Source: Trichocoleus desertorum ATA4-8-CV12
Lineage (GTDB): Bacteria > Cyanobacteriota > Cyanobacteriia > FACHB-46
Reading direction: 5' to 3'
Assembly (NCBI GenBank): GCA_019358975.1
Contig: JAHHIL010000004.1
Coordinates: 62,001 to 126,000, forward strand
Length of the DNA stretch: 64,000 bases
A program made the position numbers and the translations under genes. Position 1 is the first letter of the stretch. Every line of letters starts with the position of its first letter. Under the pieces are notes generated by a model. That model had not been told where the DNA came from. It saw only the letters and a program-made list of their open reading frames with translations, and made no database searches. Of this stretch, positions 2,462 to 55,896 are shown one piece after another.

Positions 2462-4246
2462 TTAGGCCACTGTAGCTGCGCCTAGTTGAAGAGCATAGAG
2501 ATTGGCGTAAACTCCTTGTTGAGCGATTAGTTCGGCATGGGTGCCAGATTCTACAATTTGTCCTTGCTGAATCACTAGCACCTGATCGGCTTGGGTGACG
2601 GTGCTAAGGCGGTGAGCGATCACGAAGCTGGTGCGGCCTTGGAGGAGACGGGCGATCGCATCTTGCACCAGAGCCTCAGTACGGGTGTCGATGCTGCTGG
2701 TGGCTTCATCGAGGATCAAAATTCGGGGATTAATCAAGACGGCGCGAGCGATGCTGACTAGTTGCCGTTGACCTTGACTGAGAGGTGCTCCGCGTTCTCC
2801 TAGTTGAGTTGAGTATCCCTGGGGTAGGGAGGTGACAAATTCATGGACATTCGCGAGTTGAGCAGCCGCTTCAATATCCGCTTGAGTCGCGTGCGGAGAA
2901 CCAAAAGCGATGTTTTCTGCTACAGTGCCGCTAAAAAGGATATTGTCTTGCAAAACAATGCCAATCTGCCGACGCAGACTAGCTTGGGTCACACTGCGGA
3001 TATCAATGTCATCAATTTTGACTGCTCCACCCGTCACATCATAGAAGCGTAGGATCAAGTTGATAATTGTGCTCTTCCCCGCTCCTGTTGGCCCTACTAA
3101 AGCAATCATCTGACCTGGCTTGGCGCGGAGGTTGACTTCCTTTAGCACTAATTGATTAGGGCTATAGCCAAAGGAGACATTCTCAAAAGTAACTTCTCCT
3201 TGAATTGATGGCATTTCTGTAGCGTCAGGAGCATCATGGAGTTGAGAGGGTTCATCGAGTAGCAAAAAGATCCGCTCTAAACCCGCCAGAGCTGATTGGG
3301 CTTGAGTATAGAACTGGCTGAGAATCTGGATAGGGCGAAAGAATTGCTGCACATACAACAAGAAAGCAGTCACTACCCCCACTGTCGCAGCTCCAGTCAC
3401 CGCCAGATAACCGCCATAGGCTAGTACCGCAGCGGTTGCCAATGTATTGAGAAAATCAATCGAGGGGAGAAACGCAGCCGTGATGGCGACCGCCTGGACG
3501 TTAGCATCTCGGTTAGCCGCGTTCACTAAGTCAAACTCGGCAATATTAAGCTCTACCCGGTTGAAAGCTTGCGCTTCTCGGACGCTGGTGATGCCTTCTT
3601 CTAGCTTGGCCGAGAGGTCGCCGATAGTCTGACGGGTGACGCGAAACCTGGCTCTAGCCCAACCCGCAAAGAAACTGGTGGTAAAGATCATCAGAGGCAC
3701 TGCCAAATTGCTCAACAGCGCCAGCTTAAAGTTGATTAAAAACATGGCAATGATGATGCCGAACAAGCTGAATGTGTTGCCTAGCATTTGAGCGATCGTT
3801 TGTCCAAAGGCTTGATTCACCGTGTTGACATCATTCAGCAAACGGCTCATCAAGTCACCCGCTTCACTGCGATCGAAAAAGCTAACCGGGAGACTTTGGA
3901 TTTTGGTGAAAATGTCCTGCCGCAGTTGTCCCAACAATCGCTGCATGATCCAACCCACGCGCAAAATCTGGCCACGAATTGCCTGAATGCCAAGGATATA
4001 GATTAACGCTAGCAACGCCAACATCAACAGCAATCCGGGTAGGTTTCCTTGGGTGATCAGGTTGTCGATTGACCAACCAATCAGGAAAGGGCCTATAGAC
4101 TGAGTTGCAGCACCGAGCGCCACTAAAAGGAGAGCGATCGGAACTTCTTTTTTATAAGGTCGGAGATATTGCAAAAAGCGCTGCAATGTCGAAAGCTGAC
4201 GGCTCGCTTGCTGCTCTCCTGCCACAACTGGCCCTGCACCTCTCAT
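2462..4246 (-). CDS. ABC exporter half-transporter, catalytic (consensus) subunit
   Basis: 594 residues: an N-terminal six-helix exporter transmembrane domain (to about residue 320) and a C-terminal ATPase. The ATPase has Walker A GPTGAGKS, signature LSQGQ, Walker B LILDEATS with the catalytic Glu, and switch His in FVIAHRLSTV. The Gln-containing LSQGQ signature together with a complete catalytic site is the pattern of TM288/BmrD-like subunits of heterodimeric exporters. Its ATG overlaps the stop of the upstream partner by 4 nt, so the two are translationally coupled. Substrate (drug, lipid or peptide) cannot be read from the sequence. Confidence 0.92.
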   Translation of the reverse strand: MRGAGPVVAGEQQASRQLSTLQRFLQYLRPYKKEVPIALLLVALGAATQSIGPFLIGWSIDNLITQGNLPGLLLMLALLALIYILGIQAIRGQILRVGWIMQRLLGQLRQDIFTKIQSLPVSFFDRSEAGDLMSRLLNDVNTVNQAFGQTIAQMLGNTFSLFGIIIAMFLINFKLALLSNLAVPLMIFTTSFFAGWARARFRVTRQTIGDLSAKLEEGITSVREAQAFNRVELNIAEFDLVNAANRDANVQAVAITAAFLPSIDFLNTLATAAVLAYGGYLAVTGAATVGVVTAFLLYVQQFFRPIQILSQFYTQAQSALAGLERIFLLLDEPSQLHDAPDATEMPSIQGEVTFENVSFGYSPNQLVLKEVNLRAKPGQMIALVGPTGAGKSTIINLILRFYDVTGGAVKIDDIDIRSVTQASLRRQIGIVLQDNILFSGTVAENIAFGSPHATQADIEAAAQLANVHEFVTSLPQGYSTQLGERGAPLSQGQRQLVSIARAVLINPRILILDEATSSIDTRTEALVQDAIARLLQGRTSFVIAHRLSTVTQADQVLVIQQGQIVESGTHAELIAQQGVYANLYALQLGAATVA

Positions 4247-45566: not shown

Positions 45567-48557
45567 CTACCTCTGCATAGAGCAGGGATGCTGCCAAGCC
45601 GTGTAAAAAGCGGCGTAGGGTAATTGCTGAGCACAATACCAAAGCAACTTGTAGCACTCTTGCGCTTGAGGAGAAAGCTTGGCTTTGGGAGGAATAGCTC
45701 TCAGATTTGATGGAATCGTAGGGTCAAAGCATTTCAGGGTAGAAACAATCATCGGTAACTGTTCCTGAAGCAGAATTTCCCTCAAGTCCTCACCCATGCG
45801 GCGATAGAGAGTTGTGGAGTGTTGAGACTGCAACAGTTGGAGCAAGACCTCAATTGCTTGAGGATGTCCTGGCTGTAGGTGCCCCAATTGGCAAGCTAGT
45901 CGTCGCTGGGTGGAAGCATCCGTCGCAACTACCAAACGCTGTTCCAAAGCCGCGATCGCCTGAGCGGGATCTCGTTGAACTTGAGGTTTAGCGCGTCGGG
46001 AACGTTTTGGGAAGGGAGCGGGCTGCTGATTCGCTTGGATGAACGTGTTAGCGATCGCATGGCTGGGATCAAGCTGCAATAAATTCTCTGCGGCTTGCAG
46101 GCGTAAAGAGATGTCTGTAGCCGTTTCGATCAAGTTGGTTAAAGTTGTGGCGGCGATCGCATTCCCTGAGTCAAGCTTGCCCAAAGCATAAGCAGCTTTC
46201 CGACGCAACGAGTCTTGTTTGGTAGTAGCAATGAGGTCTGTCAAGGTCGCGATCGCCAGCGGATTACCAGGGTCAACTTTGCCTAAGCTCTCACCAATTT
46301 GCAGCCGCAACGGTTCGCTATGTAGCGTCTTCAGGAGGCGAGTCATCGTCGCGAGCGCCACCCGATTCCCCTGCTCAAAGGTTTTGCCCAAACTGTAGGC
46401 CGCATTCCAACAGGCAAAGAAATCAGAGGTAGATTGAATAAATTGTTCTAACGCCGCGATCGCTTGGGTGCGGTCAGTTTGTAGCAGCGCCACTCTCGCT
46501 CCCTCTTGCATTGGAAATGGATAGCATTGCCAAGTTTGCTGCTGAGAATCGAACTCACCAAACCGCCAGCGCAGTAACTGAGTCAAGATAGATTCTGCAT
46601 CAGGATATTCCGGAAACTCGGTCAAACCTGCGGCTGCGAGAAAATAAGCTTGATAGTGATAGAACCCGCCACAGCCATCTTCCCACTCCGTTAGAGCTTG
46701 AAGAAAAGAGATCTTTTCTATAGCAGATATATCGGAGCGTCCTAACCACAGCAAGATCACCTCTCGCCATTGGGAGGCACAGACGAGCGGAGATGCCTCT
46801 AGATCCACCGGTGAGTTAGGAGCAGTTGGAGGGAGAAAGCAACGCCAATCAGCGATCGCTTGGGCGGCAAAATACTCCTGAAACGTCGGGTGATAAAAGG
46901 CGTAGACCTTTTCTCCAGATGTAGTAGAGATACCGACTTGATTTAGCCAGCCTAAATTGAGGGCGAGATCTAGCAACTCCAGGGATTGTTCTCTAAAGAC
47001 TTGCTGCACTAACGACTGGGATAAGCGAAACTTAGTGTTTGTTTGCGCCAACGCCTGCAAAGCTAGCTGCCCCAAAGCTTGATTCAGTTGCCAGCGTTGA
47101 GCCAAGCTGGTAGGAAAGCGGTCTTGCTTCCACTCGTAGATAGTCTCGACAAACTGTTGATATAACGCCGCTTTCGAGTTGGGTAGAGCACCCTGAGCCA
47201 GCGACCAAGCACGACAGAGCAAAGCTAATCGCAACGGATTTTTTACCACATCCTTGATTCGTCGGCGCTCCAGCTTGTCGAGTTCTACCTGCAAGCGATC
47301 GCCCAATGTGGGCTGCGACTGAAACCAACGCTCAATAAATTGTCCCACCTGATCTGTATTTGCAGCATCTCCATGACTAAACGTGAGATTACGATAAGTG
47401 GTAAAGGTTTCTAGCGCATTTTTGCCACTATCCCAAACATTAAGGCGACAGGTGAGAATCACATGGGCATCAGCAACCCAACCGCGCAACTGCCTCGCGA
47501 TCGCCGCCAAAGCAGAACTTGCCTCCGTTGCCATCTCATCGACAGCATCCAGCAGCAGCCACACTCGCCTTTGATTGAACTGCACTCCTAATTCTTCTTG
47601 TAACTCTGTTGCAACCGTAACTTTGCGAGTTGCTGCTTTCAACCAATCTTGTAGTAGATACTGCTCTAAGGTGGCTCCTTGCAAATCTGCCAAGGAGATC
47701 CAAATTGGTAAGGCTCGTTGTTCCAGCAACCAACTGGCGATCTTTTGTAGCAATGTGGTTTTGCCCGCTCCTGGTTCTCCGGCGATCGCAATCCGTTTTG
47801 CCAATCCGGTCTGCTGCAACTGTTCCAGAAATTGCTCTAGAACCAACTGAGCCGTATCTCCCTCTTCCGTCTCATAGAGTTTCGAGCCTTGATCTGCCCT
47901 CACCTCTATATCTCGCCGCTCCTGCTGTTTACGCTCCACTAACCCTAGCGGTACATATACTTCATCTACCTCAAATGCAACTCCATCTCCCACGGTCAGC
48001 GGATTGGTCGTGAGTCGTTGATACTGCTGCGCCTCTAAAACTTCTCGGCACCACTGCCACCACGCATCTGCTTGAGGCGAATCGCCATTCGCCCCTACAA
48101 CTGCTGCATCTGTATTTTGAGTACTTGTTTTCTGAGCTACCTGCTTCGACCTTTGCGATCGCCGCTGTTCCCACTCCGCCTCAAAGCGCTGCAAGTTGAC
48201 TGCGCGATCGCGCCGAGGATGCCATAACGTCAACGTGAAATGCCAAGTTTCCGAGCCACCCCGATTTGGACGATTATCCTCCAACAATTCCAGAAAATCT
48301 TCAAACCGTCGCAACGCTTCCTTAATCTGTTCACCCGTCAAAGGAGTCGCCGCCAGCTTGGTCAAAGCCTCTAAAAACCGCACCTTCGTCCGCACAATTA
48401 GGCGCTGTTCGGTCTGCCAATGCACCTGGATTTGCGATCGCAACCCATCCAAAGCCACCTCATCACAGTCCAACTCATCATTGGCGTAATCCAACAACAC
48501 CGCCAATAACTGCTGCGATCGCTTCTTCACTTCCGGGCCATAACTTAGACGTGCCAT
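45567..48557 (-). CDS. NACHT-domain STAND NTPase with C-terminal HEAT-like repeats
   Basis: About 996 residues. An N-terminal ~130-residue helical domain (ending in the ETWHFTLTLWHP block) is followed by a linker and a NACHT module: P-loop IAGEPGAGKTTL (near 261), Walker B VWLLLDAVDEM (near 337) and LTCRLNVW. Winged-helix and VFREQ/YHPTFQEYFAAQ segments follow, then about seven HEAT/PBS-type repeats of ~34 residues (residues ~690-950, e.g. AIATLTDLIATTKQDSLRRK). Bacterial NACHT proteins act in signalling or phage defence; no nuclease or other effector is recognised here. The ATG at 48557 leaves 11 nt after the Uma2 gene; an upstream in-frame start would overlap it. Confidence 0.85.
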   Translation of the reverse strand: MARLSYGPEVKKRSQQLLAVLLDYANDELDCDEVALDGLRSQIQVHWQTEQRLIVRTKVRFLEALTKLAATPLTGEQIKEALRRFEDFLELLEDNRPNRGGSETWHFTLTLWHPRRDRAVNLQRFEAEWEQRRSQRSKQVAQKTSTQNTDAAVVGANGDSPQADAWWQWCREVLEAQQYQRLTTNPLTVGDGVAFEVDEVYVPLGLVERKQQERRDIEVRADQGSKLYETEEGDTAQLVLEQFLEQLQQTGLAKRIAIAGEPGAGKTTLLQKIASWLLEQRALPIWISLADLQGATLEQYLLQDWLKAATRKVTVATELQEELGVQFNQRRVWLLLDAVDEMATEASSALAAIARQLRGWVADAHVILTCRLNVWDSGKNALETFTTYRNLTFSHGDAANTDQVGQFIERWFQSQPTLGDRLQVELDKLERRRIKDVVKNPLRLALLCRAWSLAQGALPNSKAALYQQFVETIYEWKQDRFPTSLAQRWQLNQALGQLALQALAQTNTKFRLSQSLVQQVFREQSLELLDLALNLGWLNQVGISTTSGEKVYAFYHPTFQEYFAAQAIADWRCFLPPTAPNSPVDLEASPLVCASQWREVILLWLGRSDISAIEKISFLQALTEWEDGCGGFYHYQAYFLAAAGLTEFPEYPDAESILTQLLRWRFGEFDSQQQTWQCYPFPMQEGARVALLQTDRTQAIAALEQFIQSTSDFFACWNAAYSLGKTFEQGNRVALATMTRLLKTLHSEPLRLQIGESLGKVDPGNPLAIATLTDLIATTKQDSLRRKAAYALGKLDSGNAIAATTLTNLIETATDISLRLQAAENLLQLDPSHAIANTFIQANQQPAPFPKRSRRAKPQVQRDPAQAIAALEQRLVVATDASTQRRLACQLGHLQPGHPQAIEVLLQLLQSQHSTTLYRRMGEDLREILLQEQLPMIVSTLKCFDPTIPSNLRAIPPKAKLSPQAQECYKLLWYCAQQLPYAAFYTAWQHPCSMQR

Positions 48558-48568
48558 TGGTCGTGTCT

Positions 48569-49132
48569 CTAGATCCCCATCTTGAGCCAACCAAAAACTT
48601 GCTCTACTGTTAAGGCTAGATCAATCTCTGGTAATACAGGCAAAACATCCTCTTCTTGAAGTAGAGAAGGCTGTTGCTTTGGTAAAAAGATCAAGATACT
48701 CAGGTCGTCGGGGTCAACAAACCAGCCTAAACGACAGCCATACTCCAAACAATGAAGAATATTGCCAATGACTTTATTGGCTTTTTGCTCAGGCGACAGA
48801 ATTTCAATTGTCCAATCTGGTGGTAGCTCAAAATTATCAGGCACTTCAGCGTTCGTAGTGAATGGTATATGCTGCCACTGGAAAACCGCTAGATCCGGTA
48901 CAAGCGATCGCCCGCCAAAACTACAACGTAACTCTGGGAATGCGTAGGCTATTTGCTGCTCCTCTGCCGTTTGATTTACAGCAGCACCAATTTTACCTTG
49001 CAGACGACTGTGTCTCCCTTTAGGTATGGATTTTTGAATAATGGCACCGTTGATGTATTCGCTAGCAGGTTCTGTTTCTGGAAGCTGCAAAAATTCCTCT
49101 AGGGTAAGGGGTTGAGACGTTACCGTAGCCAT
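48569..49132 (-). CDS. Uma2-family (DUF820) putative endonuclease
   Basis: 187 residues from the ATG at 49132 (MATVTSQPLTLEEFLQLPETEPASEYINGAI in part). Restriction-endonuclease-like elements are PDLAVFQ and WTIEILSPEQ, with a YGCRLGWFVDPDD end typical of the family, which is greatly expanded in cyanobacteria and without a firm function. The frame continues 54 codons upstream without a plausible start. It precedes the NACHT gene by 11 nt, so the two are likely one transcript. Confidence 0.85.
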   Translation of the reverse strand: MATVTSQPLTLEEFLQLPETEPASEYINGAIIQKSIPKGRHSRLQGKIGAAVNQTAEEQQIAYAFPELRCSFGGRSLVPDLAVFQWQHIPFTTNAEVPDNFELPPDWTIEILSPEQKANKVIGNILHCLEYGCRLGWFVDPDDLSILIFLPKQQPSLLQEEDVLPVLPEIDLALTVEQVFGWLKMGI

Positions 49133-49467
49133 TGTTCTAGCATCCTCTACAGATGTGTTCTGAGTGTAGCAAAGAGAATGGTGAGCGATCGCTTTATTAC
49201 ATAGGTCGTGAAGGCATTGACCATGAGGTGGGGCGTGAGTCACACACCCTACGATTCTGGGAAAGAAACCACAAAAGCTGGGGGAATCCCTCAAGTCAAA
49301 ATATTCCCCTAGCGCTCAAACCTTTAGAACAAAAGCATTTTGGCTCTTAGTTGATGGATTCGCCTGAGGGAAGATGGCCCGCCTATTCTGAATTCATCCA
49401 AGACAGAGAGGCAGCAGAACGATGAACCGACGACGAACTTAAACCCAGATCATTAACAACTTTGCAT
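49133..49467. other. intergenic region upstream of the tRNA-like RNAs
   Basis: This holds divergent promoters for Uma2-NACHT and for the RNA-Ro60 locus. A 65-codon frame on the plus strand (49153-49350) has no recognisable family. CATTAACAACTTTGCAT precedes the first RNA unit, without a clear -35/-10 pair. Confidence 0.4.
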
Positions 49468-49596
49468 GTGGCGGCTAGCTCAACAGTAGAGTACCAACTT
49501 TGCCCTTACGGGCCGCAGATTGAGGGTTATCGTTTACAAACCGAATCCCCCCTTAATCGCCGGAGATGCGGGTGCAATTCCCGCGCCGCTACACCA
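49468..49596 (+). ncRNA. tRNA-like RNA unit 1, candidate Y RNA (YrlA type), with encoded CCA
   Basis: Paper folding gives a tRNA body: acceptor GTGGCGGC (49468-49475) with GCCGCTAC (49585-49592), 8 bp including one G-U; linker TA; D-stem GCTC/GAGT with loop AACAGTA (49478-49492); T-stem GCGGG/CCCGC with loop TGCAATT (49568-49584); then ACCA (49593-49596). The anticodon arm is replaced by ~74 nt with hairpin GCCC-TTAC-GGGC (49502-49513) and a 9-bp helix GATTGAGGG (49518-49526)/CCCTTAATC (49550-49558). Bacterial Y RNAs that mimic tRNA sit next to Ro60 genes, and the Ro60/TROVE gene follows here. It is not a normal tRNA: no anticodon arm can be drawn. Confidence 0.7.
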
Positions 49597-49622
49597 AATC
49601 TCCAAAATTTCTCGATTTACAC

Positions 49623-49747
49623 TGGCAGGTCGCTTAACAGTAAAGCACCACTTTTTGCCTTTACGGGCCGCAGATTGAGGGTTATCGCTTGCAAATCGAA
49701 TCCCCCCTTAATCGCCGGAGATGCGGGTGCAATTCCCGTCCTGTCAA
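49623..49747 (+). ncRNA. tRNA-like RNA unit 2, candidate Y RNA
   Basis: The same plan as unit 1, 27 nt further on. Acceptor TGGCAGG (49623-49629)/CCTGTCA (49740-49746), 7 bp with one G-U; D-stem GCTT/AAGC with loop AACAGTA (49632-49646); T-stem GCGGG/CCCGT with loop TGCAATT (49723-49739). The insert is nearly identical: hairpin GCCT-TTAC-GGGC (a C-to-T change still pairs as G-U) and GATTGAGGG (49673-49681)/CCCTTAATC (49705-49713). The acceptor and D-stem sequences differ from unit 1 yet still pair, i.e. compensatory change. No encoded CCA. Confidence 0.7.
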
Positions 49748-49755
49748 TTTTCCAA

Positions 49756-49776
49756 TTTGCCCAAACGGGCCGGAGG
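49756..49776 (+). promoter_or_regulatory. third copy of the RNA hairpin over the Ro60 ribosome-binding site
   Basis: TTTGCCC-AAAC-GGGCCGGAGG (49756-49776) repeats the GCCC-NNAC-GGGC hairpin found in both RNA units. Its 3' flank contains the GGAGG that should serve the ATG at 49788. If the Ro60 protein binds this hairpin it could repress its own translation; that is inference. Confidence 0.45.
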
Positions 49777-49787
49777 CGTTACAAACA

Positions 49788-51392
49788 ATGAATTACCAAT
49801 TTTTTGTCCAAAACAAAACTCGCACCCCTCAAACTCAACCTATCCCTGGACGCGCAACGGAAATGATCCAGGGACGTTCTGGGGGCTACATGTTCCAGGC
49901 AGGGTTGTGGCAAACTCTGCGACGCTGCTTGCTGATTGGCACTGCCCAGAGCACTTACTACGCCGGAAAGCAAGAACTGACGAACGAGTTTGTGGATGTC
50001 TTAGAGCAGGCGATCGCAGAGAATCCGGAGCGAGTTGCGGCTGAGATTGTCTATGCTTCGGATGGTCGTGCCATCAACAACAGTGCGCCGATCTTTGCCT
50101 TAGTGCTGCTCTCGATGGGGGAAGCCCCGGAAGCGAAACAAGCTTTTCAAAAAATCTTTCCGCAAGTGGTGCGGACGGGTAGCCATTTCTATGAGTGGCT
50201 GAACTATACCAAGTCAGTGCGAGGATTCGGCAAAATTGTCCGAGCCGCAGGTCAACGGTGGTTAGCACGAGAGAACGTCAAAGAATTGGCGTACCAATTG
50301 CTTAAATATCAACAGCGCCAGGGTTTCTCTCACCGAGATGCGTTGCGGCTGTTCCACGTTAAGCCTCCCACAGAGGAACATAACCAGTTGTTTCAGTGGG
50401 TGACTCAAGGTTGGGAGAACCTACCTCACCAGGCTCCTTCAGAGGCTCTAGGGCAAATCTGGTGGTACGAGTGGCTAAAGCGGCACCCAGAGCAAGCTCA
50501 TGAGGCGATCGCGAAAGGCCGCTTAACTCACGAAATGGCTGCACCTGTGGGCAAAATGGACAAGCAGGCTTGGCAACTCTTGTTCAATGACATGCCAATT
50601 GGAGCCATGTTGCGAAACCTGGGTTCCTTGACAGAGCTAGGCGTTCTTCGATTTGACCACCGCAAAAACCTAGACAAAGTAGAGAGAGCTCTCAACAGTC
50701 GAGAGCATCTCCGTAAGGGTCGCATTCACCCCATTGATGTCCTCAAAGCGCTGAAAACTTACCAATCGGGCGGTAAATTAGGCCGTAGCCAGAAGACTTG
50801 GGAACCCATCCCACGCATTGTAGACATTTTAGAAAAGGCGTTAGAACTCTCCTTTGATGTGCTGCAACCTACTGGGAAAGTGTTTCTCCATGCGATCGAT
50901 GTTTCTGGCTCTATGTCTTACTACAGTGTGAGTTCTATCGGCTTAACCTGTTGTGAGATTGCTACCACAATGGCGCTTGCTACTGCCAAAGCTGAGAAGA
51001 ACTATGTGATTCGAGGATTTGCGGAGAATTTTCGAGATCTCAATATTTCTGCTCAAGATTCCTTCAGTTCCGCGATCGCCAAAGCCAACAGCCAGAACTT
51101 TGGTGGCACCGACGCTTCTGTGGCCTACGATTGGATGATTCAGCACAAGTTCAAAGCGGATGTCGTTTGCTTCTGGACGGATTGCGAAAGCTGGGCAGGA
51201 CAACGGCACCCTAGCCAAGCGCTAGCAGAATATCGCCGCAAGGTGAACCCTAACGTGAAGGCGGTGTATATCAGCTTGGCCCCCTACCAAATTTCCTTGG
51301 TTGACCCTAAAGATCCGTTGTCTTGGGATCTAGCAGGTTTTGACCCCGGTGCGCCTCGCCTGATTCAAATGCTAGCAACGGGTGAATTGTAA
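49788..51392 (+). CDS. rsr: Ro60-like TROVE/VWA RNA-binding protein
   Basis: 534 residues, the length of Ro60 (about 538). The N-terminal two thirds are TROVE HEAT-like repeats (SGGYMFQAGLWQTLRRCLLIGTAQSTYYAGKQELT in part, then DLEQAIAENP-like helices) that form the ring binding Y RNA and misfolded RNA ends. The C-terminal VWA domain has the MIDAS motif DVSGSMS (near 370) and GGTDAS. In Deinococcus and Salmonella, Rsr works with Y RNA and PNPase or other nucleases in RNA decay and stress recovery. ATG 49788 chosen from family length; an open frame runs further upstream through the RNA unit. Confidence 0.92.
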   Translation: MNYQFFVQNKTRTPQTQPIPGRATEMIQGRSGGYMFQAGLWQTLRRCLLIGTAQSTYYAGKQELTNEFVDVLEQAIAENPERVAAEIVYASDGRAINNSAPIFALVLLSMGEAPEAKQAFQKIFPQVVRTGSHFYEWLNYTKSVRGFGKIVRAAGQRWLARENVKELAYQLLKYQQRQGFSHRDALRLFHVKPPTEEHNQLFQWVTQGWENLPHQAPSEALGQIWWYEWLKRHPEQAHEAIAKGRLTHEMAAPVGKMDKQAWQLLFNDMPIGAMLRNLGSLTELGVLRFDHRKNLDKVERALNSREHLRKGRIHPIDVLKALKTYQSGGKLGRSQKTWEPIPRIVDILEKALELSFDVLQPTGKVFLHAIDVSGSMSYYSVSSIGLTCCEIATTMALATAKAEKNYVIRGFAENFRDLNISAQDSFSSAIAKANSQNFGGTDASVAYDWMIQHKFKADVVCFWTDCESWAGQRHPSQALAEYRRKVNPNVKAVYISLAPYQISLVDPKDPLSWDLAGFDPGAPRLIQMLATGEL

Positions 51393-51744: not shown

Positions 51745-54700
51745 ATGCATATTCTTCATGGCACTTGGATTCCAGAAGAGACAACGGGTTTTGTCCAGAG
51801 TGGTGGATTTTATCTGTGGATTGAAACCACAGAAACGCTGCGACGGCGTAAGACAGTCCCTCTCCTCCACTTAAATCATTTGCCCCAAGAGAAACTAGCG
51901 AAATTTCTCACCGAAGCTCTTGGCATCAAGCCTGCTACTTATCAAAAACTCGAAACCGCGATCGCGCCAAAATATTTTTTGTTGCCGACCGTAGAAGATC
52001 AACCTTGCCCTTCTCCAGAACTAGCCCGCTATCTGGAACTGGAGCCACCCGAACAATGGCAGTGGCAATACTGGCAAGTCGATTGCTACCGTCCCACAGC
52101 CTATGTCAAAACTAGCACTTACAGCCATGCCTCTGTCACGAATGTCATTAAGCTGCTGAATGAGCTACATTTCATCGCTTTGCACAATTTGGCTGAGATT
52201 CAGTTGGGCGCAGATCTCCTATTTTGGTATCACTACACCCAATTCTTTAAACAAATCATTCTGCACGATCAATACATTCCAGCCCTAAAGTATCGATCGC
52301 TCACTCCAGCACCGACTCCCACCGCGCCCTCTGCTAAAGCAAAACGCAAAACCACAGCTTCAACCACCGCCAAGACCACCAAGGGTAAGCGCCAGACCAA
52401 AACCGAGACAGCAAAAGCAGGAACAGCCCCCAAAGAGTTTGAAATTTATCAAGGCTGGGAAATCCTTTCAGCTCGGTATGAAGCGGAATTAGAGCGATAT
52501 GTAGAACTGATGCCCTTCATTTGTGTAGCAGGTTGCTCGGAGCCGCAAAAGCCACCGCAACTCTACGATAAAACAACTTTGCTGCGTCATTTTTCGGAGG
52601 TATTGCTAGCCGAAATTGTCACTCATACCCCCACCTCCACTGCCTTTGAGAAACAGATTAACGATACTTTGTTGGGGAGTTGCTTACATCCCGGACATCC
52701 TTGGCAATATCCGGAAGGGTTAACCCAATATCAGCAGTGGAAAACCTGGCGCGATCGCATTGGCCGCAGTCAAGCTGATCTCCCCTTTCATTTATGTTTT
52801 CAGCTCCAATCGCCTGCCAAACCAGAAGATGCTTGGACGCTGGAGTTTCAGGTAGCTTCACGGCAAGATCCCTCAGTGCAGATCCCCTTACAGGACTACT
52901 GGCGGCTCCGCACCAATCGCCACAAAGCTCTGATTCAACAGTTTGGAGAAGATTTTGAGCAACATTTGCTGATTCATCTGGGTTATGCTGCGCGGATCTA
53001 TCCTCAGCTCTGGACTGGCCTAGAAACTGATCAGCCTGTTGGGATCTCTCTGACGATCGCCGAAGCTTCTGCCTTTTTGCAAGAATCAGCCTGGGTCTTG
53101 GAAGCAGCGGGTTATAAAGTCAGGGTGCCTGCTTGGTGGACTCCTCAAGGCTGGCGGCGAACCAAGCTGCGGATGAAAGCGCAAGGCCGCACCTTGGGCG
53201 GAGACGACAAAAGTAAAACTTACTTCTCCTTTGAAACCCTAGTAGATTACCGCTACGAGTTGTCAATTGATGGCAAGCCCGTGAGCGAACAAGAGTGGCA
53301 AGAGTTGGTCGATACCAAAGCTTCCTTGGTGCAGTTTCGCGGTCAATGGATGCAGCTCGACCAAGACAAAATGCAGCAAATGTTGGAGTTTTGGAAAAAA
53401 CATCAGCACGAGCGGCCAGAGCTGAGTTTGGTTGATTTTATGAAGCTGTCTGGAGGCAGCGAGGATGGCATTGAGCTAGAAGTCGATCACGACGAGACTT
53501 TGGCCGAGATGCTGAGTAAACTGAATGACAAAAGTCATCTAGAAATATTGCCCGATCCCAAAACACTCCAGGGAACCTTACGCACCTATCAAAAACGTGG
53601 CCTAGCTTGGCTGCACTATCTCGAAACGCTGGGCCTGAATGGTTGCCTCGCGGATGATATGGGCATGGGCAAGTCGTTACAGGTGATTGCTCGCTTGGTG
53701 CAAGAGCGGGAACAGGTGCCCAAGAAATCCAAAAAATCAGTAACTATCTCACCCACGTTGTTGATTGCGCCGACTTCAGTGGTGGGTAACTGGCAAAAGG
53801 AGATCGAGAAATTCGCCCCACATCTGCGATCGCTCGTCCATCATGGTAGCGATCGCCTCCAGAAAAAAGAGGAGTTTCAAGCCGCGATCGCCAACTGTGA
53901 TGTCGTCATCACCTCCTACACCTTGGTTCGCAAAGATATCACTCTGCTCTCAGAAGTAGAGTGGCGACGGATCGTGATTGATGAAGCCCAAAACATTAAA
54001 AATCCCAAAACAGCTCAAACTAAAGCCATCTACAAGCTACCAGGGCAATATCGGCTGGCGCTCACAGGCACTCCGGTCGAAAACCGCTTACTTGATCTAT
54101 GGTCCATTTTCAACTTCCTTAATCCGGGTTATCTAGGTAAGGAGTCGCAGTTTCGCCAATCCTTTGAAATCCCGATTCAGAAAAATAATGATGTCATGCG
54201 CTCTGCCACGCTCAAAAAATTGGTGGAGCCGTTCATTCTCCGTCGCGTCAAAACCGATCCCAGCATCATTCAAGATCTACCTGACAAGATGGAGCAAAAG
54301 CTCTACTGCAACCTCACCAAAGAACAAGCGTCTCTCTACGAAGCTACCGTGAAAGATGTGGAGAAGCAATTACAAGCAGCAGCAGGCATTCAGCGTAAGG
54401 GCTTGATTCTCGCTACTCTGATAAAACTGAAGCAAATCTGTAACCATCCCATGCAGTTTTTGCAGGATGGCAGTGACTTTACCCCAGAGCGATCGCACAA
54501 GTTAGAGCGCTTAACGGAGATGACCCAAGAAGCGATCGCGGAAGGAGAAAGCCTACTCGTATTTACCCAATTTTCCGAAATTGGCGAAGCGCTAGAGAAG
54601 TACCTGAAACATACGCTGCGCTGCAACACCTACTATCTCCACGGCGGCACCCCTCGCCCCAAACGAGAACAGATGATTACCGAGTTCCAAGACCCCAATA

Positions 54701-55035
54701 CTGAACCTTCAGTTTTTGTGTTGTCGTTGAAAGCAGGTGGTGTGGGCATTACCCTGACCAAAGCCAACCATGTGTTTCATTTCGATCGCTGGTGGAATCC
54801 GGCGGTAGAAGACCAAGCCACCGATCGCGCCTTCCGGATTGGTCAAAAGAAGAATGTTTTTGTGCATAAGTTTGTCGCAATTGGCACCTTGGAAGAACGG
54901 ATTGACCAGATGATTGAGGATAAAAAGAAACTGGTCGGCGCGATCGTGGGAGCGGATGAATCTTGGCTGACAGAACTCGACAATGAAGCCTTTAAGCAAT
55001 TAATTTCTTTGAATCGCAGTGCTGTGTTGGATTAA
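51745..55035 (+). CDS. SNF2-family helicase/ATPase
   Basis: About 1,096 residues. The N-terminal ~580 residues belong to the large bacterial SNF2 proteins (MHILHGTWIPEE start, WTPQGWRR segment), with a Lys/Thr/Ala-rich basic linker near 187-231. The motor has motif I DDMGMGKS (near 634), Ia IAPTSVVGNW, II VIDEAQNIKNP (near 746), III LTGTPVENRLLDLW, V LKAGGVGITLT and VI DQATDRAFRIGQ. Such proteins translocate on double-stranded DNA and remodel nucleoprotein; this bacterial class is often paired with a SWIM-domain partner, as here (21 nt downstream). Confidence 0.92.
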   Translation: MHILHGTWIPEETTGFVQSGGFYLWIETTETLRRRKTVPLLHLNHLPQEKLAKFLTEALGIKPATYQKLETAIAPKYFLLPTVEDQPCPSPELARYLELEPPEQWQWQYWQVDCYRPTAYVKTSTYSHASVTNVIKLLNELHFIALHNLAEIQLGADLLFWYHYTQFFKQIILHDQYIPALKYRSLTPAPTPTAPSAKAKRKTTASTTAKTTKGKRQTKTETAKAGTAPKEFEIYQGWEILSARYEAELERYVELMPFICVAGCSEPQKPPQLYDKTTLLRHFSEVLLAEIVTHTPTSTAFEKQINDTLLGSCLHPGHPWQYPEGLTQYQQWKTWRDRIGRSQADLPFHLCFQLQSPAKPEDAWTLEFQVASRQDPSVQIPLQDYWRLRTNRHKALIQQFGEDFEQHLLIHLGYAARIYPQLWTGLETDQPVGISLTIAEASAFLQESAWVLEAAGYKVRVPAWWTPQGWRRTKLRMKAQGRTLGGDDKSKTYFSFETLVDYRYELSIDGKPVSEQEWQELVDTKASLVQFRGQWMQLDQDKMQQMLEFWKKHQHERPELSLVDFMKLSGGSEDGIELEVDHDETLAEMLSKLNDKSHLEILPDPKTLQGTLRTYQKRGLAWLHYLETLGLNGCLADDMGMGKSLQVIARLVQEREQVPKKSKKSVTISPTLLIAPTSVVGNWQKEIEKFAPHLRSLVHHGSDRLQKKEEFQAAIANCDVVITSYTLVRKDITLLSEVEWRRIVIDEAQNIKNPKTAQTKAIYKLPGQYRLALTGTPVENRLLDLWSIFNFLNPGYLGKESQFRQSFEIPIQKNNDVMRSATLKKLVEPFILRRVKTDPSIIQDLPDKMEQKLYCNLTKEQASLYEATVKDVEKQLQAAAGIQRKGLILATLIKLKQICNHPMQFLQDGSDFTPERSHKLERLTEMTQEAIAEGESLLVFTQFSEIGEALEKYLKHTLRCNTYYLHGGTPRPKREQMITEFQDPNTEPSVFVLSLKAGGVGITLTKANHVFHFDRWWNPAVEDQATDRAFRIGQKKNVFVHKFVAIGTLEERIDQMIEDKKKLVGAIVGADESWLTELDNEAFKQLISLNRSAVLD

Positions 55036-55056
55036 AAGTTCCGGAAAGGAGTAGCC

Positions 55057-55896
55057 ATGAAAAAACTCTCGAAAACCTGGTGGGGCAATCGGTTTATTCA
55101 AGCCTTAGAAATGTTTAGTGATCCGGGGCGTTTGAGTCGGGGCCGTTCCTACGCCAACAGCAACCGTATCCGTCAACTAGACATCATTGACTCCGTGATT
55201 CGGGCAGAAGTTCGAGGCAACGTCAATCCTTACTTTGGGGTTTACAAGGAGCCAATCTATCAAATTGAGATTGCCATTCATCCGATTAGTCAGGCGCAAT
55301 GGGCGGCAGCGATCGCTTACATTGCTTCCAAAGCTAGTTTTATCTCGAAACTGCTGCTGAATGAGATGCCAGACAACATTGAGGATGCCTTTCAGACCTT
55401 GGGCTTGCATCTACTACCGAAAGCAAAATTAGATTTTGAAACTCGCTGCTCCTGCCCAGATTGGGGCAATCCTTGTAAACATGTGGCTGGAGTTTACTAT
55501 CGCGTCGCTGGAGAACTCGATCGCGATCCCTTTCTCCTGTTTGAGTTACGGGGGCTACCCAGGAAACAACTACATGCAGAGCTAGCCAAATCACCCCTAG
55601 GCCAAGCCCTGATCGCAGAACTCAATGCCGAAGCCAGCACTCCCGCACCCGTCACTTCCTATTACACCCGCCCTCAGCTTACGGCACTTCCTGAGGAGAT
55701 CAATCCCAAAACCTTTTGGCAGGGAAACAAACCATTCCCTAAAAATATTGAAGTGCTACCACCCAGTGCCGTTTCTGGAATTTTGGTCAAGAAACAAGGA
55801 GATTCTCCCGCCTTTTGGCAAAAGGATAACTCATTTATTGCCGCGATCGATGAGTTATATGAGCGCGTGAAGACAAAAAATCGTGACTTGCTATAA
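55057..55896 (+). CDS. SWIM zinc-finger protein, partner of the SNF2 helicase
   Basis: 279 residues. The SWIM motif is CSCPDWGNPCKHVAGVYY (Cys-x-Cys...Cys-x-His, near residues 131-148). The N-terminus has SKTWWGNRFIQALE and GRLSRGRSYANSNRI, characteristic of SWIM proteins encoded with SNF2 helicases. Likely DNA- or protein-binding adaptor. AAGGAG precedes the ATG. Same operon as the SNF2 gene. Confidence 0.92.
   Translation: MKKLSKTWWGNRFIQALEMFSDPGRLSRGRSYANSNRIRQLDIIDSVIRAEVRGNVNPYFGVYKEPIYQIEIAIHPISQAQWAAAIAYIASKASFISKLLLNEMPDNIEDAFQTLGLHLLPKAKLDFETRCSCPDWGNPCKHVAGVYYRVAGELDRDPFLLFELRGLPRKQLHAELAKSPLGQALIAELNAEASTPAPVTSYYTRPQLTALPEEINPKTFWQGNKPFPKNIEVLPPSAVSGILVKKQGDSPAFWQKDNSFIAAIDELYERVKTKNRDLL

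Follow-up and report, generated by a model that had tools for sequence, protein, structure and literature searches.

Tandem tRNA-like units upstream of the Ro60 gene of Trichocoleus desertorum probably represent cyanobacterial Y RNAs

The window analyzed here is a stretch of 64,000 nucleotides (nt) from the cyanobacterium Trichocoleus desertorum ATA4-8-CV12 (contig JAHHIL010000004.1, positions 62,001 to 126,000), and coordinates below are positions in this window. It harbors on the forward strand an intact gene coding for a Ro60/TROVE protein of 534 amino acids (49788-51392; PF05731 and PF25045), which matches the structures of Rsr (PDB 2nvo, E=4.9e-72) and Ro (1yvp, E=5.3e-69). As noticed in a first-pass annotation made from the sequence alone, two tandem tRNA-like units, A (49468-49596) and B (49622-49747), lie directly before this gene on the same strand, at a spacing of 41 nt. 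The elements described in that annotation are all present: an acceptor, a D-arm, a T-arm with the loop TGCAATT, a GCCC/GGGC hairpin and a GATTGAGGG/CCCTTAATC helix. Read from the sequence, the acceptor of unit A is G(49468)TGGCGGC / GCCGCTAC(49592), with its 5' strand at 49469-49475, its 3' strand at 49585-49592 and G49468 adding an eighth pair (G-1:C73). This 8-bp stem is followed by A and an encoded CCA (49593-49596), the ACCA end already noted for the first unit. The D-arm of unit A is GCTC-AACAGTA-GAGT and its T-arm GCGGG-TGCAATT-CCCGC (49568-49584, with G55). Unit B has no CCA and harbors the acceptor TGGCAGG/CCTGTCA, the D-stem GCTT/AAGC and the same T-loop. The acceptors and D-stems differ between the two units and still pair, in agreement with the compensatory change that had been claimed.

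The first-pass annotation also described the anticodon arm as replaced by an insert of about 75 nt. The inserts do measure 75 nt in unit A and 76 nt in unit B, but the arm is interrupted rather than replaced, because the outer pairs 27-28:42-43 are kept (in unit A, CC at 49494-49495 facing GG at 49562-49563) and most relatives retain the whole arm, which the units of the window lack. In unit A the insert holds a predicted Ro element in two parts. The first (49499-49516) is a UUUGCCC-UUAC-GGGC hairpin formed by strands X and Y1, followed by an extra C (49514), and the second (49518-49558) comprises GATTGAGGG (Y2, 49518-49526), a conserved GTTATCG and CCCTTAATC (Z, 49550-49558). The corresponding element of unit B (49654-49713) has X at 49654-49660, Y1 at 49665-49668, the extra C at 49669, Y2 at 49673-49681 and Z at 49705-49713. 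A custom covariance model (R1) matches unit A with 58.0 bits over 49469-49592 and unit B with 56.4 bits over 49623-49747. Unit B scores 35.9 bits with the Rfam tRNA model (RF00005, gathering score 29), unit A was not reported as a match to it, and ARAGORN found no tRNA, tmRNA or tag frame in the unit region. Unit A folds better than its shuffled versions (z -3.5, 0/200 shuffles as good), and unit B alone gives a modest signal (z -1.3, 24/200). Moreover, the inserts of the two units are 95% identical over 85 nt although their acceptors are unlike, so that the insert was probably copied from one unit to the other.

The arrangement is conserved beside other Ro60 genes. A DNA similarity search recovered the pair of units before TROVE in related genomes, a scan by TROVE alignment added 80 cyanobacterial and five viral loci, and 87 TROVE loci were parsed by seeking an acceptor, a D-arm and a T-arm around an insert. 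Of the 87 loci, 86 have such units before TROVE; the parser counted 224 altogether, with one to ten at each locus, so that the adjacency to a Ro60/Rsr gene that characterizes Y RNA genes is found here. The units are always upstream of and co-directional with Ro60, the last one typically 38 nt before the ATG. Some loci carry a single unit, and the first and last units of arrays are complete. Folds conserved upstream of other TROVE genes had been named in the first-pass annotation as support for its reading, and the opposite outcome, arms without conservation, was not seen. The custom covariance search that it had proposed was run with R1 on 242 cyanobacterial genomes, 48 of which have a Ro60 vWA domain. 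Since an ordinary tRNA can score about 57 bits at 72 nt, a strong match was taken as one over about 60 bits and over 100 nt, a cut-off set after the scores had been seen. Strong full-length matches were listed in 44 genomes, all among the 48 with Ro60, and none for the other 194. The window's genome and one further genome (G002) have full-length matches adjoining Ro60 at 58 and 57 bits, and the remaining two Ro60-positive genomes (G012 and G058) have no listed match; their assemblies are fragmented, and G058 contains only a fragment of the Ro60 domain.

Several loci show particular features. For example, Picosynechococcus PCC 7002 carries three units and Ro60 on its plasmid pAQ7. On a 104-kb viral contig from IMG/VR (L100), three units of the cyanobacterial type (3552-3942, 78-88 bits) precede a Ro60 gene of the contig itself. 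Genome G076 has a second array, made up of two units (C79:11996-12250), on a contig for which the Ro60 vWA search reports no gene. Finally, a TnpB-type insertion sequence element has apparently inserted in unit A of an array in genome G010 (L017, 5200-7400), and the 3' part of this unit is duplicated.

In the Ro element, a short hairpin with a bulged extra C, where GGC-C-GA faces UU-GCC, precedes a second helix and GGUUAUC. The extra C is present in 153 of 159 parsed elements, and a helix of the Ro60-binding type with a bulged C is therefore found at the level of sequence. Its counterpart in vertebrate Y RNAs is a bulged-C helix in which GGUC-C-GA/UUGAC corresponds to GGC-C-GA/UUGCC of the units and, in hY4, is likewise followed by GGUUAUC (PMC4619022, PMC5331234); the bulged C is required there (PMC8973356). 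Several phage and bacterial loci, among them actinobacterial ones, also have a GGYCGA...GGUUAYC signature upstream of their Ro genes; there GGUUAYC, when present (some loci do not have it), occurs two to four times per kb versus about 0.1 expected. The order of the strands varies: it is Y-Z-X in vertebrate Y RNAs (hY1-hY5 type), which have no tRNA body, and in YrlA, Z-X-Y in the commoner cyanobacterial units and X-Y-Z in units of the window type, whose strand Z follows Y instead of preceding X, so that the Ro duplex is nicked elsewhere.

Covariation supports both the module and the body that surrounds it. Among 63 units of the commoner type, the 35 proposed pairs are formed in 95.1% of cells, against 84.5% in shuffled and 38-53% in slid controls, and compensation is observed in 26 of them, with covariation in the acceptor, D, T and insert helices. 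In 23 units of the window type 93% of cells are paired (40-51% in slid controls), with a covariation score of 0.290 versus 0.185 after shuffling. Run unaided, RNAalifold did not find the Z:Y2 helix on alignment A2 and recovered the helices, including Z:Y2, on alignment A3, which holds the window type. The outer anticodon pairs flanking the insert covary (CG 30, UA 20, GC 4) and the innermost pair of the anticodon stem is also compensated. When complete anticodon arms (5 bp, 7-nt loop) were placed from pairing alone, U33 was found in 74/76 and a purine at position 37 in 72/76. Because the outer and innermost pairs covary and these two loop positions are kept, the Ro module of most relatives lies within an anticodon arm that is normal in other respects, between nt 28 and 29, where it breaks the continuous anticodon stem-loop of a true tRNA.

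The body bears further marks of a tRNA. Of 214 distinct units that could be classified, 212 combine either GG in the D-loop with U55 or AG with G55, a count not corrected for relatedness (183, 1, 1 and 29 in the two-by-two table, p=1.5e-33), and such co-variation of the D- and T-loops is the expected mark of a tRNA elbow. Pseudouridine 55 would be expected to be absent from the AG/G55 class, of which the units of the window are members. Among distal units, 96 of 138 have an encoded CCA, compared with 1 of 36 tRNA genes in the window's genome. No parent tRNA isotype is claimed, since the best matches are spread over 17 isotypes and score 25.0, which resembles the 23.7 obtained between different real tRNAs, though a few bodies are suggestively Leu- and Ser-like.

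The first-pass annotation had proposed probable YrlA-type Y RNAs. Their nature as Ro60-linked tRNA mimics of Y type stands, whereas the assignment to YrlA does not: the Rfam YrlA model (RF02553) gives no match in the region, nor, with E<=10 allowed, anywhere in the window's genome, and the topology is reversed. Like the units, YrlA of Salmonella, actinobacteria and phages adjoins Ro60/Rsr, has tRNA-like D, T and acceptor arms and carries a GGYCGA...GGUUAYC Ro element, and a mini anticodon arm is visible in Nonomuraea and phage copies. However, the Rfam consensus runs from a basal stem through the T-arm, the closed acceptor and the D-arm back to the basal stem, and thus ends in the Ro stem, whereas the cyanobacterial order is acceptor, D-arm, Ro element, T-arm and acceptor, open at the acceptor. 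The commoner cyanobacterial unit, as written in its sequence, is an exact circular permutation of YrlA in which the acceptor is opened and X and Y are joined by a tetraloop; the units of the window are a further rearrangement, with one strand of the Ro helix on the other side. Phage and actinobacterial Y RNAs show the order of the Rfam YrlA structure, permuted relative to the cyanobacterial one. These comparisons support the separate cyanobacterial branch that had been suggested, and we provisionally place the units among the bacterial Y RNAs as a variant that is new.

A half copy of the Ro element lies between the units and the gene. In the window, the leader hairpin TTTGCCC-AAAC-GGGC-C-GGAGG (49756-49776, forward strand) covers the Shine-Dalgarno sequence of Ro60. 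A strict pattern, TTGCCY-NNNN-RGGC-[C/T]-G..GAG, is present directly before the Ro60 start in 73 of 87 loci, compared with 0.68 expected from shuffles, with covariation from C:G to U:A. An exact pattern searched in 14 genomes had three occurrences, all of them at the Ro60 locus, and its reversed control had none. Similar hairpins precede the Ro genes of Streptomyces phage Comrade and Microbacterium phage Zooman, and the leader was also noticed at the loci L105, L108 and L101. As the half element overlies the ribosome-binding site of Ro60, the simplest reading suggests autoregulation of Ro60.

Taken together, the anatomy and the neighborhood indicate, with a probability of about 85%, that both units are cyanobacterial Y RNAs, with one side that holds Ro60 and an opposite side that displays a tRNA-shaped body. 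The array would be co-transcribed with Ro60 and the units excised by tRNA maturation enzymes such as RNase P, often with their CCA already encoded. Ro60 would then bind the predicted Ro element, and the tRNA-like body would recruit or gate a partner, for example PNPase, as is described in Deinococcus. Ro60 free of Y RNA may bind the matching hairpin that covers the ribosome-binding site of its own mRNA and stop translation, which would match the Ro60 level to the supply of Y RNA. In other bacteria, the Y RNA tethers Rsr to PNPase for the decay of structured RNA (PMC8394870), and YrlA is modified like tRNA (PMC7790460). A role in RNA stress would fit the strong rise of cyanobacterial TROVE transcripts after erythromycin (PMC6424891) and the joint rise of TROVE and RtcB in coculture stress (PMC11423583). 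Some points weigh against this interpretation. The role within RYPER (Rsr-Y RNA-PNPase) is carried over from Deinococcus by analogy (PMC8394870, PMC7790460); the compared loci are related, with TROVE proteins mostly 75% identical or more, and their counts are thus not independent; the units of the window have GC where GA is usual after the bulged C, which costs one pair; and the likeness of the leader covers half of the Ro element only.

A tandem pair of units also contains a reading in the phase of YrlA, in which the Y strand and T-arm belong to one unit and, past the acceptors, the D-arm and X strand to the following unit, and the arrays could then be ordinary YrlA RNAs. The best score of the Rfam YrlA model in a cyanobacterial array (31 bits, below the gathering score of 69) indeed spans two neighboring units of Picosynechococcus PCC 7002. 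However, acceptor strands pair within units and not reliably between them (6.93/7 versus 5.58/7 between neighbors; an average of at least 6.5 for all 115 adjacent pairs within units and 22/115 between units), the single-unit loci and complete terminal units do not fit, and X, loop and Y form a tight tetraloop hairpin with compensated pairs. This makes the YrlA phase very improbable, and it is likely the open form that is under selection, since acceptors pair within units, single-unit loci exist and CCA is often encoded. It is hardly credible that an intron or insertion in tRNA genes or pseudogenes accounts for the units: the score of unit B above the tRNA gathering score, the bodies resembling several isotypes and the anticodon arm kept in most relatives would fit, but the insert is conserved, covaries, occurs only beside Ro60 and matches no Rfam self-splicing intron family, the window's genome has 40-odd other tRNA matches, and the co-variation of D- and T-loops would not persist in pseudogenes.

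The constant position upstream of Ro60 in the same direction, the short distance to the ATG and the Ro-like hairpin over the ribosome-binding site could also point to a cis-acting leader of the Ro60 mRNA that yields no separate RNAs. This is quite improbable, as the encoded CCA, the full tRNA elbow and the acceptor ends argue for excised RNAs, and the two roles could coexist. Alternatively, the units could be decoys or sensors for anticodon nucleases, whose varied anticodon loops would absorb tRNA damage or signal it. The canonical form of the loops, with U33/R37, their many triplets, the two stress responses of TROVE and the competitive-inhibitor role proposed for YrlA (PMC7790460) speak for this possibility, which remains unlikely because the anticodon arm is incomplete in the units of the window, YrlA of Salmonella was not cleaved (PMC7790460) and a large module interrupts the anticodon stem. 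A broader scheme would combine these elements: Ro60 docking elements occurring in all three cyclic strand orders and grafted, in cyanobacteria, into near-complete tRNAs with anticodon loops under selection, the arrays displaying tRNA mimics to Ro60 and partners such as anticodon nucleases or RNA-repair enzymes, and Ro60 repressing its own mRNA via the copied half-element. We regard it as rather unlikely in its entirety.

If the units are Y RNAs as proposed, bacterial Y RNAs would exist in two circularly permuted forms, interconvertible by tandem duplication, which may be an easy route between the open and the YrlA form. This would be a natural case of circular permutation in a structured RNA, with the Ro60 docking element as a portable module. 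Being open-ended and tRNA-like, the cyanobacterial form could, unlike YrlA, enter tRNA processing, modification and CCA metabolism. The leader hairpin offers a concrete hypothesis on how bacteria match Ro60 to Y RNA and, as the genetically tractable PCC 7002 has units and Ro60, a Y RNA role outside Deinococcus and Salmonella is directly testable.

Other RNA families resemble the units in part. tRNA (RF00005) has the acceptor, D-arm, T-arm and elbow and often the CCA in common with them, but the units carry a module of about 50-60 nt inside the anticodon stem and those of the window have an A18/G55 variant of the elbow. tmRNA is a tRNA mimic with a large insertion at the anticodon position; the units differ by having no ARAGORN tag frame, by their link to Ro60 and by another structure. 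RAGATH-21 (RF03097) has the T-loop UGCAAUU and the D-loop-like CUUAAuAGaAA in common with unit B, and its identity with this unit was rejected at 19.8 bits, far below the threshold of 70.3. Skipping-rope, tymovirus tRNA-like and permuted tmRNA models of Rfam were absent or below threshold in the region. Compared with 49622-49752, both RAGATH-21 and skipping-rope (RF02924) have UGCAAUU and GGAGAUGCGGG-like stretches in common with unit B; both orphan families could be tRNA-like relatives. In Rhodococcus phage Trina (L170, 1158-1366), a pseudo 'tRNA-OTHER' before a Ro gene overlaps a Y RNA-like region, and elsewhere, too, RNAs of this kind may have been wrongly annotated as unusual tRNAs.

A conserved box, CGCCTGAGGGAAG..CGCCTATTCTGaATTCATC, lies about 90 nt before unit A (49357-49405, forward strand). 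Written CGCYTGRGGGAAG...CGCCTATTCTGGATTCATC, it occurs 50-90 nt before the first unit in the window and six other loci, hence in seven loci from several genera. A sigma-70 promoter scan found nothing and the box has no sigma-70 consensus; it is a possible candidate promoter. Finally, the Ro60 locus adjoins a reverse-strand gene (45567-48590) coding for a STAND NTPase with EAD4, NACHT, HEAT repeats and NCC-H, possibly a conflict or defence gene, and directly downstream of Ro60 a SNF2 helicase (DUF3670) and a SWIM protein are encoded on the forward strand (51745-55896).
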